DNA of 64,000 nt from Leptolyngbya sp. Heron Island J (GTDB lineage: Bacteria > Cyanobacteriota > Cyanobacteriia > Phormidesmidales > Phormidesmidaceae), in the NCBI RefSeq assembly GCF_000482245.1, contig NZ_AWNH01000039.1, positions 1-64,000 on the forward strand. Reading direction: 5' to 3'. The translations under genes were made by a program, and so were the position numbers. The notes below the pieces were generated by a model that saw nothing but the letters and a program-made list of their open reading frames with translations, was not told where the DNA came from and made no database searches. Shown here piece by piece: positions 6,001 through 21,268 of the stretch (position 1 is its first letter; each line of letters opens with the position of its first letter).

Positions 6001-7215
6001 ATGGTTGCGATTCCGCACGCACATTTATCTACCCCAGATCAAAGCAATACTGACGAGCGTGTGGCAGTTTTGCTTATGGGCTATGGCGAAGTAGAAAGTT
6101 ATGAAGACTTTGCCAACTACAACGAACAAGCACTGAATTTACTGACGGCTAAATTTGCGCCTGTACCAACCTGGATTTATCCTCCCCTAGCTAAGCTCCT
6201 AGCACTCTTTGATCGCCACGAGTGGGATCACCAGCACGATCACTTCATTTCGCCCCACAATGGCATTTTTGAACGTCAGCGAGCGGGAATTGAAAATCAC
6301 CTTCAGGCCAAGTGGGGGCAGCGGGTTAGCGTTTTTAAAGCGTTTAACTTTTGTGCTCCATTTTTACCTGGGCAGGTACTCGAGGAAATTCAAGCCCAGG
6401 GCTTTACCAAGCTATTGATCTACCCGCTGCTAGTCGTGGATTCGATTTTCACCAGTGGCATTGCTGTGGAACAGGTTAACAGTGCGTTAGCCAAGACCTT
6501 TACGGGGGGAGAAGACCATTGGCTCAAAAGCACACGCTATATACCGTCCTTCTATAACCAGCCAGATTACATTGAGCTGCTAGCCCGTCAGGTGGAGGAC
6601 AAAATTCAGCAGCATTTGGCAGTTGCTCATCTCCCCTCACAAACTGGCATCGTGCTGATGAACCACGGTTGCCCCCATAAAGCAAAAGGATTTACCTCAG
6701 GTATTACGGAGAGTCAGCTACTCTACGATGCAGTCCGAGAACGGTTGGTCTATAACTATCCCTTGATTTCGATTGGCTGGCTGAACCATGACACACCCAT
6801 GATTGAGTGGACGCAGCCCAATGTCACTCTAGCCGCGCAAAATCTGATGGATCTAGGAGCTACAGCGCTCGTATTTATGCCCATTGGCTTCGTTACCGAA
6901 AATCACGAAACCCTATTGGATGTGGAGCACATCATTGGCCACTTACGCCGTAAACGGCCTGATGTTACCTATGTGCAAATGCCTTGCGTCAATGACAACG
7001 AGAGCTTTACAGCAATGGCGGCTGGCTGGGTTGATGGCCTGATTTCAGATCTTCTGGGTGAGCAGGGCATCGTTGTCAATCAGCGCGCGCAGCTTACAGA
7101 GGATTTCTCAGGACATCACCATGACAGTGCTCACAACGGGCACCACCATGACGGACATCATCATAGCGACCATGGCCACAGTCACCACCATAGCCACCAT
7201 GCCCACCACCATTAG
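6001..7215 (+). CDS. Ferrochelatase-like protein with His-rich C-terminal tail
   Basis: 404 residues of the class II chelatase (HemH/CbiX) fold. VAVLLMGYGEVESYEDF corresponds to the N-terminal strand of ferrochelatase. MNHGCP corresponds to the first catalytic-His motif (usually S-H-G-x-P), and PIGFVTENHETL to the second catalytic motif with its Glu. The last ~33 residues are mostly His with Asp, Ser and Gly, a likely metal-binding tail. There is no C-terminal chlorophyll-binding-like (CAB) helix, which canonical cyanobacterial HemH carries, so this is probably not the main haem-synthesis enzyme. Insertion of iron, cobalt or nickel into a tetrapyrrole, or metal storage, are all possible. Terminated by the hairpin at 7248. 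Confidence 0.8.
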   Translation: MVAIPHAHLSTPDQSNTDERVAVLLMGYGEVESYEDFANYNEQALNLLTAKFAPVPTWIYPPLAKLLALFDRHEWDHQHDHFISPHNGIFERQRAGIENHLQAKWGQRVSVFKAFNFCAPFLPGQVLEEIQAQGFTKLLIYPLLVVDSIFTSGIAVEQVNSALAKTFTGGEDHWLKSTRYIPSFYNQPDYIELLARQVEDKIQQHLAVAHLPSQTGIVLMNHGCPHKAKGFTSGITESQLLYDAVRERLVYNYPLISIGWLNHDTPMIEWTQPNVTLAAQNLMDLGATALVFMPIGFVTENHETLLDVEHIIGHLRRKRPDVTYVQMPCVNDNESFTAMAAGWVDGLISDLLGEQGIVVNQRAQLTEDFSGHHHDSAHNGHHHDGHHHSDHGHSHHHSHHAHHH

Positions 7216-8048: not shown

Positions 8049-8401
8049 GCTATTCACTCGATTACAATACGCTCCACCCATGGTAACTAGGTGGTTCCCT
8101 ATCTTAAGTTAAGTACTCTTACTCATTTCAGCCACCTGTTTTGTATCGTTTGACAACAAAAATGTTCAGTATTGGCGATTTCAAGCAGTCAAACATACAG
8201 GTCTCTGTTAAGTCAGGTATTGCCTATTTTGGAAGTTCGGTACAACTTATTTAAGACATGCCACGCTTTTTAGCAAAATGTGAAATCATAGAGAATACCT
8301 AGCTGCATAGCTAAGCTTCATCTAGCAAGATTTTGGAGCTTGGGCAGACTAACTTCCTATTCTGGGATCAGACCAATATCTGGTTCGTTAAGAGTCTTCC
8401 T
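8049..8401. other. Intergenic region upstream of the DICT/HD gene
   Basis: About 350 bases between divergent genes. I see no RNA gene, clear operator or strong hairpin; it presumably holds both promoters. A TTG at 8333 is in frame with the next gene but has no ribosome binding site. Confidence 0.45.
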
Positions 8402-9823
8402 ATGAACTCTGAGGCTACCCTTAATCAACTCAAAACCCTTTTGCCCGAGGGGCAAATGCCCTCCAGCTATGGTGTTTACTTTAAAAACACACTGGTGGCC
8501 CTTTGTCATGCCTTGGAGGATCACATTCTCGAACAACCAGAGAGCGATCAGCCCCTAGTACTGGTGACCTTTCAACAGGGAAAGTGGTACCTACAGGAAG
8601 CCGATCGCTACCTAAATATTGCCAATTGTTCACAGCGTGTTGCGATCGCAGCTGTCCCCGACAGTGGTTTTGGTGACCATGCCACCAGTCAGCTGGCGAA
8701 TGTAGATATGGTGGATCTACAGCCAAATGACAGCCTCACCGAAGAATGGAATCTGATTATTCTAGCCCCAGGCTATGCCTCCATGGTGCTTTGCCACGAG
8801 CTATCAGAAGACGAATATCGTAGCGACAGCATCCCCAATGTAGACGTTGAACGCAAATTTTACGGACTTTGGACTTTTGAGCGTGGACCTGTGGAAGCCG
8901 CTGCCAAAATCTTGATTGAGCGCATGCGGCCCTATAATCCAACCCTGGCCCAGCAACTAACAGAACACTACAACACGATCAAAAGTAATCCGTCCGGGAC
9001 CGCAACTGATCTCAGCGGTGTTGTCTCTCGCATCGTTAACTATTTGCAGAGCAGTCAGCAGCAGCTGGTTACCGTCAGCCGCCAAACCCGCGAGCTTTGG
9101 GAGCTAGAAGGTCAAGCCTCAAAGCTGAACCGCAACTTGGCTGCCAATAAGCTCCAGGCGTTCCTGCGCATGGTGCAAAAAATTGATGAACGCGACTCTG
9201 CCAATCCTGCCGCTTCCCTACAAGTTTCAGCTTTGGCAGAGACCCTGGGGCAGCTGCTTGACTTGCCCACATTAAAACTACGCCGCCTGCGGCTTGCGGG
9301 GCTACTATTTCGTATCGGCCTGGCTGAAGCCCCTAAAGAAATTTTTCAGCAAACGGCAGACCAACTGGATGAAGCTAGTTTAGTTTTTTGGCGCGATCGC
9401 GCTGCCCTGGGTGGTCAGCTGCTCTCGTCCATGCCAGAACTAGCCCCCATCAGCCGCATTGTGACCCACCAATTAGAATACTGGGATGGTAGCGGTACCC
9501 CAGACGGCCTCAAAGCCGAGGCCATCCCGATCGAGTCAAGAATTTTGGGTTTGGTCGCCTATTTTCAAGAACTGACAGAATCAAGAGGTGAACGAAAAGC
9601 GATGTCTCCAGGGGAGGCCTTAGCCGTCTGCGAACAACATAGCGGTCGTCGCTTTGATCCCAGGCTAGTTGAGTCTTTAAGCACTGTTATTCGACTGGCT
9701 GAAATTGGCATGCTACAGCTGCCGAAACGTCCTAGCCAGCAGCCCATTGTTTGGCTTGAAGATCTTAAACCTGGAGCAGCAGAACACAGGCATCCCTCCA
9801 CAATGCAGGAAGTCACCTCATGA
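8402..9823 (+). CDS. DICT sensory domain + degenerate HD-GYP protein
   Basis: 473 residues. The N-terminal half (about 1-190) matches the DICT sensory domain found with diguanylate cyclases and two-component proteins. The C-terminal half (about 255-440) aligns with HD-GYP c-di-GMP phosphodiesterases: LRLAGLLFRIG, THQLEYWDGSGTPDGL, IPIESRILGLVAYFQELTE, GRRFDPRLVE. The metal-binding residues are largely lost: the HD pair is Phe-Arg, the later Asp of the DAFDA segment is gone, and GYP is GTP. It is therefore probably a non-catalytic ligand-binding or adaptor protein. ATG at 8402 preferred over TTG 8333 because AAGAG lies 8-10 bases upstream. Overlaps the next gene by 4 bases (ATGA), so the two are translationally coupled. 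Confidence 0.82.
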   Translation: MNSEATLNQLKTLLPEGQMPSSYGVYFKNTLVALCHALEDHILEQPESDQPLVLVTFQQGKWYLQEADRYLNIANCSQRVAIAAVPDSGFGDHATSQLANVDMVDLQPNDSLTEEWNLIILAPGYASMVLCHELSEDEYRSDSIPNVDVERKFYGLWTFERGPVEAAAKILIERMRPYNPTLAQQLTEHYNTIKSNPSGTATDLSGVVSRIVNYLQSSQQQLVTVSRQTRELWELEGQASKLNRNLAANKLQAFLRMVQKIDERDSANPAASLQVSALAETLGQLLDLPTLKLRRLRLAGLLFRIGLAEAPKEIFQQTADQLDEASLVFWRDRAALGGQLLSSMPELAPISRIVTHQLEYWDGSGTPDGLKAEAIPIESRILGLVAYFQELTESRGERKAMSPGEALAVCEQHSGRRFDPRLVESLSTVIRLAEIGMLQLPKRPSQQPIVWLEDLKPGAAEHRHPSTMQEVTS

Positions 9824-10401
9824 CCCCATCAGAAATTAAGGCAGTTCTGCAGGGAACTAAAAAGGATCTGATGGGTGCTGAGTTAGCTGGCATGGACCTC
9901 AGTGGTTTAGACCTATCCCAAGCCAATCTAAAGGGGGCCAACCTGAACGGCACCATCCTCAAACAGGCAGATCTCCGCGCTAACCTGCGCGGAGCTGACT
10001 TAATGGGGGCTAACCTAACTGCGGCAGACCTTCGTAATGCCGATTTACGAGGAGCCGTGCTACTAGAAGCAGATACCACTGATAGCAGTTTCGCTGGGGC
10101 GTTTCTAGCTGGTGCCGTTTTAAGCAACCTTAACCTGATGGCAGTCGATCTGCGAGGAGCCGACTTACGAGGAGCAAACCTTTCTGGCTGCAACCTTCGC
10201 AATGCTGACCTGGGTAACGCCAATCTATCAGGAGCCGATTTATCTGGGTCCGATTTAGAAGAAGCCAATTTGAGTGGAGCTGTGTTACGAGGGGCTAATT
10301 TAAGCCAAGCCAATCTCTTATGTGCCCATGTCAACAATGCCAATTTTGACGGCGTGGTCCTAGCAGGTGCTTGCTTAACCGGGACACCGTTAGATACCTA
10401 A
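9820..10401 (+). CDS. Pentapeptide-repeat protein
   Basis: 193 residues. A short helical start (MTPSEIKAVLQGTKKDL) precedes about 33 pentapeptide units of A(D/N)LxX type spanning residues about 17-185; no signal peptide, so cytoplasmic. Such beta-helices act as protein-interaction surfaces; no specific target can be read from sequence. One unit near residues 48-55 (ADLRA-NLRG) is a residue short, breaking the register once. Its ATG overlaps the stop region of the DICT/HD gene by 4 bases, suggesting the two products work together. Confidence 0.9.
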   Translation: MTPSEIKAVLQGTKKDLMGAELAGMDLSGLDLSQANLKGANLNGTILKQADLRANLRGADLMGANLTAADLRNADLRGAVLLEADTTDSSFAGAFLAGAVLSNLNLMAVDLRGADLRGANLSGCNLRNADLGNANLSGADLSGSDLEEANLSGAVLRGANLSQANLLCAHVNNANFDGVVLAGACLTGTPLDT

Positions 10402-10692: not shown

Positions 10693-11041
10693 CAGAAGGC
10701 CTTAAAGCTGAGGAGTTGGGGAACATTGAACTTGAATTCACTATCAAGTCCAAGAGAGTTCTCTGGCTTGTTTATAAATTTATATAAGAATTTAATCGAA
10801 AGTAATGTTAACTACAGCAATGTGGCCTAGGATTAAGCTGAAATTCAGTTGACAAATTGCTCGCTTAGTTTGTTTGTATGGTAAAAAGGACAGGCAGCTT
10901 TTCTCCACGTTGAGCTTGTTCCATTCTTTACCTCTCTTTAAACATAAAGGGAAGTTTTCTTAATTCATCAATTAGTTCGTCTTAACTTGATATCGCTACA
11001 TTGCTTCGTGGCCTGAACAAATAGCCACGGAGTGTGTAGTT
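10693..11041. promoter_or_regulatory. Upstream region of the phosphate-binding protein gene
   Basis: 350 AT-rich bases. Octamers resembling half-sites of the cyanobacterial Pho box (CTTAACCT-like) occur at 10926 (CTTTACCT), 10936 (CTTTAAAC), 10959 (CTTAATTC) and 10981 (CTTAACTT), the last two 22 bases apart. The matches are imperfect, so PhoB/SphR control is only suggested. Confidence 0.3.
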
Positions 11042-11995
11042 ATGGTTAAGTTCGCTCAATTTTTTGGCACGGCAGCTGCTGTAGCTTTGGCAGGTGTCCT
11101 AACGGCTACGTCTGCAATTGCCCAAACTATCGCCATTGACGGTTCTAGTACCGTTTTTCCCATCACTGAAGCGATGGCTGAAGAGTATGCCCTCAGCGGT
11201 AACTCTGCAGAGATTACTGTTGGCGTTTCCGGCACTGGCGGTGGTTTCAAAAAATTCTGTGCTGGTGAGACTGTTATCTCTAACGCATCTCGTCCGATCA
11301 AAGACATAGAGAAAGAGCTTTGTGCCACAAATAACATTGATTACATTGCTATTCCTGTTGCCTATGATGCTCTAACTATTGTGGTCAATCCTGCCAACGA
11401 TTGGGCAACTGAAATGACCGTTGAGCAACTGAACGCAATGTGGCGTCCTGAAGCCGAAGGCACCATTACTCGCTGGAATCAGCTTGATTCCTCCTGGCCC
11501 GATGAAGAAATCGGTCTATATGGCCCTGGTACTGATTCAGGTACATTTGACTACTTCACCGATGAAATCAACGGTGACGGGGGTGTTAGCCGTGCTGACT
11601 ACACTGCTAGTGAAGATGACAACATCCTGGTACGGGGTGTTGCTGGCGATCCCTATGCTATCGGTTACTTCGGTTTAGCTTACTTTGCTGAGAACGCTGA
11701 CATTCTGAAGGCCGTCAGCATCTTCAATGAAGAGCTCGGTGAGTTTGTTGAACCCACTGTAGAAAATGTTGAAGCTGACATTTACCAGCCGCTGGGCCGT
11801 CCCATCTTCATTTACGTAAACACTGCAGCTTTGGCTGATACCAGCACTGGTGTTGCTGACTTTGTTGAGTACTACATTGAGCAAGCCGATGCAGGCGAAC
11901 TCATTCTTGATGTCGGTTATGTTCCTCTGCCTGAAGATGCCACCGACGCTACTCTCGAAGCTTACGACACAGAAGCTAACACTATTTTCAACTAG
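11042..11995 (+). CDS. PstS/SphX-type periplasmic phosphate-binding protein
   Basis: 317 residues with a signal peptide (cleavage likely after ATSAIA, about residue 27) and a PBP-like domain. [30 protein letters not shown] and [12 protein letters not shown] are the phosphate-contacting motifs of the PstS family. Such proteins deliver phosphate to the PstCAB transporter. No pstC, pstA or pstB lies nearby, so this is a stand-alone copy like SphX. Two hairpins follow the stop codon, then two TonB-like genes. Confidence 0.92.
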
Positions 11996-12016
11996 TCATT
12001 GATTAGCATTCGATTT

Positions 12017-12050
12017 CTTCCTTGGGGGGTCTTCCCTGAGGAAGGGGTTT
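12017..12050 (+). terminator. Probable terminator after the phosphate-binding gene
   Basis: CTTCCTTGGGG (12017-12027) pairs with CCCTGAGGAAG (12034-12044), 11 bp with two wobbles and a 6-base loop; only a short T run follows. Position directly after the gene supports a terminator. Confidence 0.65.
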
Positions 12051-12157: not shown

Positions 12158-13114
12158 ATGGTTAGTGTTGCTCCCTCTGAATCTCGTAAGCGTTTAGCCA
12201 AAATGGGCAGAACCCTGGCGATGCAACCGATTTTGTTTATTCAGGCATTGCCCTATGTCACAGCGCAGCTATCAGCCTATGGCATCAGTTTTCTCAAACG
12301 TCCAGTGGTATGGATGGCTCTAGGGGTACATGGCGCACTGTTGATCTTGCCAGCTGTTGACCTATCAGCACCACAGCAGGAAGAAATTGTGGAACCGGAA
12401 TCGTCAGAAGAGATCACCATTGAAGCCGTTAGCCTCAGCGATATTTTGGCTCCCACCGAACCGGTGCCGCCGCTGGCAGAACCGCAGGCACCACCACCTG
12501 AAGCACCGGCTACTGTGACAGCTGCACCGCCTGTACTTACAGAAGTCCCTGAGCAGCTTGAAGAGATTATTGAAGAGCCGCCAGACGAATTCGAAGACGA
12601 GGTTGAGGGCATATTCGACAATGAATTTGAGGATGACGACAGCGCTCAAGCCTTTGCCTTTGATCCTGCTCAGCAATCATCCTTGAGCAATAGTTTGAGC
12701 CAGTTTCTAGGAGCTTCCAACGAAGGCACAAGTAACTTTGACGTGACTACCGAATGGTTAGGGATTGATCCAACCGATCCCATAGATATCAGATTTAGAA
12801 CAAAAGATATTGCCAATGTCGTCGAACCCTCTGCTTTTTTTACACCTGATAGCATCAACGCTGGCACGTATTTACCTTTTCCCCAGGTGACATTCAAACA
12901 AATTGCTAGAAATATTGATCTTGTCAGGCGTGAGGGATTAGGGAAAGCTCTGGAAAGTGCTGGTATGTCACAGGTTGAAGAGGGTTTGTATGGTGGTCAT
13001 CCTTTCTATGGTGTCTATGCAGCGGATGGACAACCAGTTAATTACATCTCATTGATTGACTTGAAGGGGACAACACTTGTGTTTGTCTGGCCAAATGATC
13101 CTCGGCAGAGCTAA
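12158..13114 (+). CDS. TonB-like single-span envelope protein (first of a tandem pair)
   Basis: 318 residues. A basic cytoplasmic N-terminus precedes one membrane helix (about residues 48-66) of the form LGVHGALLIL, with a His placed as in the SxxxH helix of TonB proteins. A Pro/Glu-rich periplasmic linker follows (about 70-165, highly acidic toward the end), then a C-terminal globular part (about 190-318) that I do not recognise and that lacks the TonB C-terminal fold signature. The neighbour at 13355 repeats the helix-plus-linker layout. Energy transduction to an outer-membrane partner is inferred, not shown. Confidence 0.6.
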   Translation: MVSVAPSESRKRLAKMGRTLAMQPILFIQALPYVTAQLSAYGISFLKRPVVWMALGVHGALLILPAVDLSAPQQEEIVEPESSEEITIEAVSLSDILAPTEPVPPLAEPQAPPPEAPATVTAAPPVLTEVPEQLEEIIEEPPDEFEDEVEGIFDNEFEDDDSAQAFAFDPAQQSSLSNSLSQFLGASNEGTSNFDVTTEWLGIDPTDPIDIRFRTKDIANVVEPSAFFTPDSINAGTYLPFPQVTFKQIARNIDLVRREGLGKALESAGMSQVEEGLYGGHPFYGVYAADGQPVNYISLIDLKGTTLVFVWPNDPRQS

Positions 13115-13354
13115 GGCATTCAACACAGGGGTCACTTAACCTGGTCTTACCCACACAGTCCAATACAGTTAGATACCTGGAACAGGTTACATCAAAAATG
13201 CTAGCCCAATTGTTTAAGCTAGATATGGCAGTGAAGGTTTGGTTAGGACAGTTTAGAGCCTTGACACTTAACTACTCCAAGCAGTTTCGTCATCCTCATT
13301 TTTCCGTCCTTCGCTACATGGGTTGGCCTGCTATTAACTTTTGCCCACATTGTC

Positions 13355-14353
13355 ATGAACGTTTTGAAGATCCTTTTTAATCCTATTTTTTTGCTAGCAG
13401 TGGGGCTGCATGCAGGGCTATTGATGATTCCAGTCGCTGGGGGTTCATCTGACGAAATTGTGCCTGCACCTGATCCTGAGGGAGAAAGTATTACAGTCAC
13501 TCGGATTCCACCTAAATCAACGCAGCCCACACAGCCCAGTGGCCAAACAGCCGTTCCTCGACCCGATGCAACCAGCTTGCGACCAGCAGCAGCGGGATCG
13601 CAAACTTCAGGCACTAATCAGCAACAGGCACAAATACAGGGTCGGCCTCAAACTGGTCAAAGGGCTAATCAGGGTTCAATAACTGGGCAGGGCGCTGATA
13701 ATCGTCGTCAGGCTAGCAGTCGCACTACGGAAAATCGGCCAAATCGTGAGGCCACCCAAGACAGCGCTAACGAAGTTGCGGTGCTGCCCGCTAATAACAG
13801 TGACACTAATAACAGTGCTGGAAACGCTGCCTCCAGAACACCTACAGAGCAGGCAGCTCCGACCCTGGTAGCGCTCAAAGATGGGGCGCAAACTCAGGAA
13901 GTGCCCAAGCTGCTGCGAGATTTCCTAGCGCGTCTGCGGCACAGTGTGTTGATAACCACAGAACCGGAGGTTGAAGAGGCAAAGCAGGCGTGGTTAGAAA
14001 ACCTGCGCGAGCAACCAGCCATACAAGTCTCAGAGCCTCAAGCATTAGATCAGGGATTGGCAATCAGTTATCCAATTACGGATGGGGGCAGTCCTCGTCG
14101 TTATCTGAGCTGTCTCACCCCTGCACCGGAAAAAGGATTAGTGGGTGTGGTAATTAATCCTGGCGGCGCGATCGCAACTGAACCGACCCTATTACGCAGC
14201 TCTGGCTATGAATTTCTCAACGACATTGCTCTAGCCAAACTCCAGGACTACACTGACTTCCCCGAAGCAAACACCCAGAAACTCTACACAGTAGATATCG
14301 AGGTGGACTACGACCAAGATGCTTGTATAGAGCTGAGCGACCTCAAAAAATAG
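13355..14353 (+). CDS. Energy transducer TonB family protein
   Basis: 332 residues. The N-terminal membrane helix (about 8-27, LAVGLHAGLLMIPVAG) carries the TonB-type His. A long Gln/Pro/Ser/Asn-rich linker (about 30-175) spans the periplasm. The C-terminal domain (about 225-325) has the TonB pattern: GVVINPGGAI, a polar PTLLRSSG segment, LNDIALAKLQDYTDFP and a final YTVDIEV strand. TonB proteins use proton-motive force through ExbB/ExbD to open outer-membrane transporters. No exbBD or receptor gene is in view. The only in-frame start is this ATG, which has no clear ribosome binding site. Confidence 0.75.
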   Translation: MNVLKILFNPIFLLAVGLHAGLLMIPVAGGSSDEIVPAPDPEGESITVTRIPPKSTQPTQPSGQTAVPRPDATSLRPAAAGSQTSGTNQQQAQIQGRPQTGQRANQGSITGQGADNRRQASSRTTENRPNREATQDSANEVAVLPANNSDTNNSAGNAASRTPTEQAAPTLVALKDGAQTQEVPKLLRDFLARLRHSVLITTEPEVEEAKQAWLENLREQPAIQVSEPQALDQGLAISYPITDGGSPRRYLSCLTPAPEKGLVGVVINPGGAIATEPTLLRSSGYEFLNDIALAKLQDYTDFPEANTQKLYTVDIEVDYDQDACIELSDLKK

Positions 14354-14407: not shown

Positions 14408-15241
14408 TTAGACCTGAGAACGGTCAGTCAGAATTTCTTGACCGTCTTCGGTAATCAGCACCGTATGCTCAAATTGGGCCGATAGCTTGCGATCGCACGT
14501 TACCACCGTCCAGCGATCGCGCAGCGTTCGCGTCACCTTAGACCCTTCATTCACAATGGGCTCAATCGCTAAAGCCATCCCCGGCTTTAGCGTGACATTG
14601 GGCAACTCCTTAGTCCGAAAGTTAAACACCGATGGCGGCTCGTGTAGGTTACGGCCTACACCATGGCCTGTAAAGTCTTCAACCACTGTATAGCCGCTAG
14701 CCTGAATGCTATCTTCAATCGCACCAGCAATATCCAGCAGCGTTTTCCCTGGTAAAGCTTGGGCAACGCCTGCATACAATGCCGCTTCAGCAGCCTGCAT
14801 CAGCCCCTGGGCTCTGCTATTAATCTTGCCAACAGCGATCGTTATACAGGAATCACCGTGAAACCCTTCAAAATAAGCTCCGGTGTCCACTTTCAGCAAA
14901 TCCCCGGTCTTAATCACCTTGCGTTTTCGTGGAATCCCATGGACAACTTCATCGTTGATACTGGCACAAATAGACCCTGGAAACCCATGGTAGCCCTTGA
15001 AACTGGGTGTAGCCCCCATCTCACGAATGCGACGCTCTGCATAGTCATCTAGATCCGCTGTGGTCATACCTGACTGCACCAGCTCAGAAATTTCCTTCAA
15101 AACCGTTGCAACGATGCGACCAGCCTGACGCATGGTGTCCTGTTCAGGCATAGACTTTAACTCAATCCCCTGATGTTTGCGAGGTCCTACCATAACCGGT
15201 ACAGCCAGGGCTCGCGACAGCAAATTACCTAAAACATTCAT
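14408..15241 (-). CDS. map: Methionine aminopeptidase, type I
   Basis: Removes the initiator Met from nascent proteins. The 277-residue protein shows the pita-bread fold motifs with the five metal ligands: Asp in KVDTGAY, Asp in FHGDSC, His in [12 protein letters not shown], Glu in AIEPIV and Glu in FEHTVLI. The first ~35 residues form an extension common in cyanobacterial Map. Convergent with the TonB gene. Confidence 0.95.
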
Positions 15242-19840: not shown

Positions 19841-21268
19841 ATGCGCACATTAAAAAATTACAAATTTGAGATACTTCTGTTCTTAGCGACTTTTAGTATT
19901 TTAGGGATCTTTTTCCTGAGCATTTCAGGGGCGCTTAGACCGAGACCTAGCAATGTCACCATCAAATCAAACGCTAGTACGCCAAGTTCTGACAAATCGG
20001 CTGAAGTTGCTGCCAAAGTCACACTATCAGAACGATTAAGCGAGGGCACCCAAAGCTTACTGCCTAATCCTTCGGGCTCCAAAGTGCAAGGCATTGCTGC
20101 CTACGCGGCAGGCGATTATGCGGTGGCGATCGCAAATTTAGAAACAGCGCTAGAAGAAAACCGTAATGACCCCGAAGCCTTTATATATTTGAACAATGCC
20201 CGTATTGGTAATCAAACAGCCCACACGCTGGCTGTGATTGCCCCCATTGGGGATACCAGCGAAATTGGCTTAGAGATCTTGCGGGGGGCGGGTCAAGCTC
20301 AATACGAATTAAATCAACTTGTTGGGGACGATGGAGTACCGATTAAACTCCTGATTGCCAATGATAATAACGATCCCAGCATTGCCAAATCTGTGGCGGC
20401 TGAACTGGTCAACCGATCAGAGGTGCTGGGGGTCTTAGGCCATTACAGCAGCGGCGTTACCTTAGCTGCAGCACCAGTTTATAACCAGGGTCAACTGCCC
20501 ATGGTTTCCGCTATTAGCACATCAGTGGAACTCTCCGGCTTAAGTCCCTATATTTTTCGGACAGTGCCCAGTGACAGTTTTGCCGCCGCCGCTCTGGCTC
20601 GTTACATGATTAACGGCCTTAATGCCCAGAAAGCCGTTCTTTACTACGATTCCAATAGCGCCTATAGCCTGTCACTAAAAAGCGAGTTTACAACCTCAGT
20701 GTTTAGTGATGGAGGCGAAATCATCAACGAATATGATTTGGCCGGTACAGCTTTTGATGCCGATACACAGATTGCCATTGCTCTTGAGCAAGGAGTCGAC
20801 GTGGTGATGTTGGCATCTAGCACTGATACGCTGGATCCGTCACTAGCCGTGATGGCAGCCATCAACAACGAAATCCCCCTGATTGGAGGTGATGATCTAT
20901 ACCATCCTCGCGTCTTGCAAGACGGAGGAGTCGATGCAGAAGGGTTAGTTGTCGCGGTGCCGTGGCATGTATTATCAGATCCAAATTCTGCATTTGTCAC
21001 AGAGGCTCAGCAAATTTGGGGGGGTGATGTGAGCTGGCGCAGTGCTATGGCCTATGATGCAATCGCAGCCCTAGGAGCGGCTTTACTAGAAGACCCGAGC
21101 CGCGAAGGTATCCGTAACACGTTATATGGAGCTGACTTCTCAGCTGATGGAGCCACAGGAGAAGTACACTTTTTGCCCTCAGGCGATCGGAATCGAGCAG
21201 CTCAGCTTGTACAGATTCAAGCAGGTGAACGCTCTGGCCTTGGGTTTGACTTCATCCCAATTGACTAA
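19841..21268 (+). CDS. ABC-type amino-acid/urea-family substrate-binding protein
   Basis: 475 residues. An N-terminal membrane segment (about 9-30) anchors or exports the protein. A TPR-like helix pair follows (about 80-120, GDYAVAIANLETALEENRNDPEA). The rest (about 125-470) is a type I periplasmic-binding fold of the Leu/Ile/Val-binding (Peripla_BP_6) family: LAVIAPIGD, LGVLGHYSSGVTLAAAPVYNQ, FRTVPSD. Ligand unknown. No permease or ATPase gene adjoins, so it may act as a sensor or partner of a distant transporter. Confidence 0.85.
   Translation: MRTLKNYKFEILLFLATFSILGIFFLSISGALRPRPSNVTIKSNASTPSSDKSAEVAAKVTLSERLSEGTQSLLPNPSGSKVQGIAAYAAGDYAVAIANLETALEENRNDPEAFIYLNNARIGNQTAHTLAVIAPIGDTSEIGLEILRGAGQAQYELNQLVGDDGVPIKLLIANDNNDPSIAKSVAAELVNRSEVLGVLGHYSSGVTLAAAPVYNQGQLPMVSAISTSVELSGLSPYIFRTVPSDSFAAAALARYMINGLNAQKAVLYYDSNSAYSLSLKSEFTTSVFSDGGEIINEYDLAGTAFDADTQIAIALEQGVDVVMLASSTDTLDPSLAVMAAINNEIPLIGGDDLYHPRVLQDGGVDAEGLVVAVPWHVLSDPNSAFVTEAQQIWGGDVSWRSAMAYDAIAALGAALLEDPSREGIRNTLYGADFSADGATGEVHFLPSGDRNRAAQLVQIQAGERSGLGFDFIPID

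Follow-up and report, generated by a model that had tools for sequence, protein, structure and literature searches.

A pair of TonB-like genes, here called X and T2, follows the phosphate-binding protein gene sphX in a cyanobacterial genome of 8.06 Mb, an arrangement shared by many filamentous cyanobacteria. We read the three genes as a phosphate-starvation module in which X and T2 would act as ExbB/ExbD-driven transducers for phosphate uptake, X representing a new TonB-like class, and we put this reading at a probability of roughly 0.6. Because the pair is conserved and tied to sphX, and because some relatives have exbB and exbD at the same place, the reading that fits best is a specialised transducer linked to phosphate. 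The locus is of value mainly in that a TonB-like pair is conserved downstream of a Pho-box-like promoter, and in that a new domain is encoded beside the binding-protein genes of several nutrients.

Organization of the sphX-X-T2 locus

The window, the whole 64,000-nucleotide stretch of DNA that was analysed, is part of contig C39. The gene order is sphX/pstS, X and T2, followed by map on the opposite strand (Table 1). The sphX/pstS product scores 281.8 bits against the PstS family TIGR02136 (cut-off 206.6), and the closest named SphX among the matches listed, from Leptolyngbya sp. PCC 7375, is 84% identical; this cultured strain carries the module in the same layout as the window. The open reading frames of X and T2 were found where the earlier note had put them, directly behind this stand-alone phosphate-binding gene. 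Its remark that exbB/exbD and a receptor are absent nearby also held, as no window ORF of at least 100 residues is similar (E ≤ 1e-6) to the exbB/exbD references or to 12 TonB-dependent receptors and 5 porins of the same genome. The genome as a whole holds 28 matches to the TonB-dependent receptor barrel family, five OprB-type porin matches, five ExbB-family genes (none of these five loci on the window's contig) and two further PstS loci, one of them with pstC-pstA-pstB (L215).

Table 1. Features of the sphX-X-T2 locus, in window coordinates.
Feature	Position	Strand	Remarks
sphX/pstS, periplasmic phosphate-binding protein	11042..11995	+	TIGR02136 above cut-off
X, TonB-like protein, new C-terminal domain, 318 aa	12158..13114	+	
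X membrane helix, TonB-type His H58	12299..12358	+	H58 invariant in 4-row alignment
X C-terminal domain, aa 190-318	12725..13111	+	no Pfam family
T2, TonB-like protein, divergent TonB_C, 332 aa	13355..14353	+	
T2 TonB_C domain, aa 263-319	14141..14311	+	
map, methionine aminopeptidase M24, convergent flank	14408..15241	-	outside module; in relatives often adjoins T2
Pho-box-like triple repeat, 5' of sphX	10915..10944	+	19/24 match to YTTAAYYW x3, 11-bp period
Second triple repeat of the Pho-box-like kind, 3' of the first by 44 bp (four periods)	10959..10988	+	
Terminator-like 17-pair hairpin between sphX and X	12012..12049	+	

SphR boxes are described as YTTAAYYW repeats with three-base spacers (PMC13226834), and PMC1906773 gives the box as CTTAACCT. 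Tandem 8-bp SphR boxes with an 11-bp period, a feature of the Pho regulon, are present 5' of sphX as putative sites; those at 10915 and 10959 are two of the 12 top-scoring positions (19/24) among about 128,000 scanned on both strands. A score of at least 19 recurs 5' of sphX in 20 of 40 relatives, compared with 2.8% of mononucleotide shuffles, and is reached upstream of X in 3/47, of T2 in 1/33 and of map in 0/30. The stretch between sphX and X contains a hairpin (fold z-score -4.6), and a scan for sigma-70-type sites found none between these two genes. With this hairpin 3' of sphX and no such site found before X, expression of X and T2 probably depends on read-through and is lower; the hairpin is possibly an attenuator that lowers both relative to sphX.

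TonB-like anatomy of X and T2

In line with the earlier note, both proteins carry a His within a hydrophobic N-terminal helix, WMALGVHGALLILP in X (H58) and FLLAVGLHAGLLMIP in T2 (H19), with a long linker behind it. By script, the His helix was scored in 43 of 46 X proteins, in all 39 T2 proteins and in 12 of 15 distant X proteins, the remaining three of which fall just under the hydropathy cut-off. The exceptions among the 46 are L016, where the helix is visible but under the same cut-off, a 186-aa protein of L089 without a helix, and L100, which is cut by the contig end. The Ser-x3-His pattern is a mark of TonB; with a single exception, the 94 helices counted by script have Ser or Ala four residues before the His. 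The helix-less protein (L089:8876-9436) is an X-domain protein located between X and a long T2-type protein, and its start looks signal-peptide-like by eye.

The C-terminal domains of the two proteins differ as the earlier note had described, only T2 having a recognisable TonB domain, although the match is weak and divergent. Whole T2 matches TonB_C at E 0.023, below the curated cut-off, and its domain alone at E 0.0038, while in an alignment of T2-type domains six of eight members match PF03544 at E ≤ 0.1 (best 3e-6); because the window copy by itself does not reach that cut-off, the TonB_C assignment holds at the level of the family only. The end of X is indeed an unrecognised domain: the whole protein has no Pfam match at E ≤ 1, none of 33 X C-domains matches any Pfam family at E ≤ 0.1, and an hhalign profile comparison with the T2-type TonB_C domain gave a probability of 0.1%. 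We therefore call X TonB-like rather than TonB, its C-domain having no TonB_C match by sequence. Two cysteines are common to many X C-domains, and the window copy has neither.

Two AlphaFold2 runs of six rows each, headed by the window copy and by L163, respectively, predict a helix followed by four strands for the X C-domain, to which the first model adds a strand ahead of the helix. Both models are of low confidence (mean pLDDT 61 and 60), with block means of about 66-86 in the C-terminal core and values below 50 in the N-terminal part. Foldseek returned no match at E ≤ 0.001 for either model, and a PDB sequence search with the X C-domain profile returned only matches at E ≥ 0.4. Using VIA, the best match to the first model was a NAC domain (Z 6.2), with weak rows for BamC, DcrB, CyanoP and Mog1; all of these likenesses are within VIA's range for common arrangements and were rejected. 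TonB C-terminal domains are not among the VIA rows shown, an absence that is no proof either way.

Conservation of the arrangement across the order

Of the 63 genomes of the order, 56 gave a match to a four-row X profile (E ≤ 0.001), some of them N-terminally only. The set of 44 X loci analysed, with genes called by a simple ORF script, comprises 40 regions from full-length or longer matches, three earlier loci and L016; genomes with only partial or N-terminal X matches are outside this count, and 43 of the loci are from the same order, L016 being from another family. In 41 of the 44 the gene directly 5' of X is sphX, in the same orientation (median gap 159 bp), the misses being L099 and L100, at contig ends, and L016, where X is behind sphX-pst genes. 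T2 follows within 0.9 kb 3' of X in 42 of the 44 (median 106 bp), missing in L016 and, at a contig end, in L072; a second X-type gene stands between X and T2 in L077 and L089. Conservation across an order makes the arrangement more than chance. The co-occurrence of X with pstS that the earlier note had proposed to examine is thus present, and it is false that homologues of X never adjoin tonB or pstS.

Only eight of the 44 maps (L017, L064, L070, L071, L081, L082, L089 and L093) show genes like exbB and/or exbD within four genes of X; exbB itself is marked in L070, L081 and L089 and was recognised by eye in L017, and an exbD-like gene is the only exb mark in L071, L082 and L093. Fused proteins in L069, L070 (= L163), L081 and L089 combine a His helix with an X domain and two stretches of T2 type; the two of them scanned by Pfam gave TonB_C or TonB_2 once each, above cut-off in L081 only. 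The earlier note had suggested a divided or specialised transducer. The specialised, phosphate-linked half of that suggestion is supported by the sphX and T2 counts above and by exbB/exbD in some relatives, while a divided transducer is unsupported, because each protein has its own helix and some relatives have two T2-type domains and the X domain fused.

Distant X homologues and their link to exbB/exbD

A profile of the X C-domain alone, built from 33 of 49 domains, was run on 386 genomes from across the phylum and had matches in 15, one of them the window's own. In 10 of 14 distant regions (L201-L204, L206-L211) X adjoins sphX, pstS-type or pst genes, and exbB/exbD are present in nine (L202, L203, L204, L206-L211). 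The order in L202 is sphX-X-exbB-exbD, with ExbB and ExbD confirmed by Pfam; UBA11370 has sphX-pstC-pstA-pstB-X, then two more TonB-like genes and a convergent exbD-exbD-exbB; and Acaryochloris sp. IP29b has a sphX-type gene-pstC-pstA-pstB-exbB-exbD-exbD-sphX-X. In these other families X sits behind pstB, points away from sphX, or has exbBD on one side and a pstS-type gene on the other; independent placements of this kind speak for a functional link with pst genes. The T2 profile found no T2 in the ten pst-linked regions of other families, so that T2 is not obligatory. In the other four distant regions, X adjoins znuA (L213), an SBP_bac_6 domain within a 1068-aa ORF (L212), or, with two genes between, an ABC importer with an SBP_bac_8 protein (L205); no binding-protein gene was seen in the region of L214.

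As a control, 79 regions covering 82 PstS-family matches in 48 of 146 genomes were surveyed, and X was present in seven. Genes for exbB/exbD, detected by similarity to a few reference proteins so that misses are possible, occur in four of the seven regions with X (two of the four from one genus) and in none of the 72 without it; the Fisher probability, calculated by hand, is about 2e-5 if regions are independent, which those of related genomes are not. A SphX profile search gave many non-cyanobacterial loci and 14 that are cyanobacterial by title among the 80 listed, and the X domain is present in four (L121, L133, L163 and L192), all within the 14.

Receptor or porin genes like those of this genome (12 receptors, 5 porins) were found beside none of the scanned loci. 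Large neighbouring ORFs considered as receptors were rejected: L076 and L080 each encode an O-antigen ligase of about 870 aa, the neighbour of 800 aa in L205 is a methyltransferase/glycosyltransferase-type protein and that of 758 aa in L301 a pyruvate formate lyase.

X-type genes beside importers of other nutrients

X-type or X-like genes also adjoin znuA in L213 and L290 (Pfam ZnuA) and iron-type binding proteins in L018 and L293 (SBP_bac_8) and L212 and L304 (SBP_bac_6), L018 being from the window's own genome and L293 from Leptolyngbya sp. PCC 7375; in L301 an X-type gene adjoins a modA-type protein (SBP_bac_11) and a fused permease-ATPase. The zinc, iron-type and modA-type substrates are assigned by family membership, and L018, L293 and L304, which are below the C-domain profile threshold, are X-like by helix and general layout. 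In a 46-row C-domain tree, the zinc-linked pair, one row from each of two families, clusters together (94/90), as do two iron-linked rows across taxonomic families (99/95), while L304 and L301 sit on long branches. The rows linked to pst are not united in a single group, and one of them, L201, stands with the FutA-linked rows at low support (91/61). TonB_C-type paralogues among L287-L306 are beside no marked binding-protein gene, a contrast that is soft because the maps mark only genes with a reference.

The proteins at L018:9121-9939 (contig C112) and L293:5728-6543 are TonB-like, with a Cys-containing C-domain, and are encoded beside a FutA-type binding-protein gene; a fur-like ORF, named by eye, lies a few kb from the former (L018:14663-15127). 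A third protein like these is in L291, with no marked binding-protein gene in its fragment. The X-domain protein at L301:3029-3856 may be a molybdate-linked transducer.

Proposed mechanism and alternative readings

The anatomy of X and T2, together with established knowledge of TonB, points to two ExbB/ExbD-driven transducers; gene neighbourhood is itself no proof of function. Co-transcription, drive by ExbB/ExbD and a role in transport are what we infer for the pair. Both proteins would be anchored in the inner membrane, their His helices driven by the ExbB/ExbD proton channel, which is encoded beside the module in some relatives and elsewhere in this genome. The long linkers would bring two different C-terminal domains across the periplasm: the TonB_C-type domain of T2 might act on an outer-membrane TonB-dependent receptor, and the X domain on a second site that depends on which ABC importer is the partner, the likeliest being the substrate-binding protein of that importer or the channel supplying it. 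Membrane energy would thereby help to load the periplasm with phosphate at times of scarcity.

The occurrence of this undescribed domain beside phosphate, zinc, iron-type and molybdate-type genes suggests that membrane energy goes into an outer step of nutrient uptake in some cells, and that this may be a general strategy. A bolder proposal is that X forms a separate class of proton-motive-force transducer, whose C-domain acts on the substrate-binding proteins of ABC importers and not on TonB boxes. We hold it only tentatively; if it were true, one type of motor would actively load periplasmic carriers of phosphate, zinc, iron and molybdate.

It is unlikely that X and T2 are instead envelope proteins of the TolA/SjdR/GltJ kind, serving outer-membrane integrity, cell-wall remodelling or motility through ExbB/ExbD-type motors, with the proximity of sphX reflecting envelope changes in starvation. 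Such roles have precedent in Anabaena, where TonB1 (SjdR), which resembles GltJ/AgmX, is reported to shape septal peptidoglycan (PMC8262864) and TonB2 is proposed to be TolA-like (PMC8597729), and no receptor adjoins the X and T2 genes. SjdR is like X and T2 in being a TonB-like cyanobacterial protein without the complete TonB-box-binding motif, and unlike them in its cytoplasmic extension and septal role; a link to pst is not mentioned in the available portion of the paper (PMC8262864). An envelope role leaves unexplained why X-type genes stand beside four kinds of binding protein (phosphate, zinc, iron-type and molybdate-type), and why exbB/exbD appear only at those pstS regions that contain X.

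We consider it rather improbable that X is a regulator or tether, its C-domain sensing whether the binding protein is loaded or empty, or holding that protein near the membrane, and its His helix a relic. Cells are well known to sense phosphate limitation through Pst, which favours this idea, as does the position of X beside binding-protein genes and not receptors. A relic would hardly be kept in nearly all X and T2 proteins, and a passive tether has no need of the exbB/exbD found at many X loci.

Distances correlate among all four proteins, X, SphX, T2 and the map product: over all pairs the coefficients are 0.77 for X-SphX and 0.79 for X-T2, and where map is known they are 0.86 and 0.84, with 0.85 for X-map. 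Partial correlations given map are 0.37 (X-SphX) and 0.32 (X-T2). This measure is not informative as to the partner of X and does not single out SphX. Least probable is that an old cluster has simply been kept by descent while X and T2 serve general TonB functions such as iron uptake, for although these distances correlate, the map flank often recurs within the order and genomes of the order mostly have two to four T2-type domain matches, other families link X to pst genes in different arrangements and Pho-box-like sites lie 5' of sphX.

Relation to known systems and to phosphate uptake

The phosphate-linked module shares with TonB-ExbB-ExbD (E. coli TonB; Anabaena TonB3, all5036) the N-terminal His helix, the low-complexity linker, the TonB_C of T2 and the exbB/exbD near some relatives; unlike that system, it is linked to a phosphate-binding protein and Pho-box-like sites and not to a siderophore receptor, and X, without TonB_C, ends in a domain of no known family. 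The anchor-linker-domain layout is also that of TolA in TolA-TolQ-TolR. X matches tolA_full at E 0.063 only, over helix and linker; it differs from TolA in sequence, its C-domain having no Pfam match, TolA included, and in its linkage to ABC importers.

Uptake of inorganic iron in Synechocystis is reported to need TonB and ExbB/ExbD (PMC7676907, citing Jiang 2015 and Qiu 2018), which is similar in applying membrane energy to the outer-membrane step of an inorganic nutrient and different in that the nutrient is iron, not phosphate, and the TonB canonical; a comparable role has been speculated for manganese (PMC7020235). Inorganic phosphate is described as crossing the outer membrane by diffusion through porins (PMC7250820). 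With the conserved TonB-like pair, the Pho-box-like promoter and the exbB/exbD of relatives, this step would be an energised one in some cyanobacteria, and energy-dependent loading of the periplasm with phosphate becomes testable, at least in filamentous cyanobacteria. In the open-licence literature, represented mainly by titles and the beginnings of abstracts, we found no description of a linkage between TonB/ExbB and a phosphate-binding protein in cyanobacteria.

The phenotype studied in SAR11, Prochlorococcus and marine Synechococcus (PMC7250820) is one that such a module could produce, and the module is a candidate only where it exists. Its authors state that Pst cannot explain the phenotype and propose ion pairing; TonB and ExbB do not occur in the main text. 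Five small genomes of the same class (1.7-2.6 Mb), probably picocyanobacteria, have no ExbB-family match among the matches listed, and if they are picocyanobacteria the module therefore cannot explain the published case.

Other genes of the window

A gene encoding DICT, CHASE6_C and HD_5 domains (8333-9823) overlaps a pentapeptide-repeat gene (9820-10401), and the same pair is also found 5' of sphX in the close relatives L063, L065, L066 and L067. At 19841-21268 the window encodes a periplasmic-binding-protein-type protein (Peripla_BP_6) with a TPR stretch at its N-terminus. The product of 6001-7215 is a ferrochelatase-family protein with weak similarity to CbiX and a very His-rich C-terminal tail, which could be a metal-storing chelatase.
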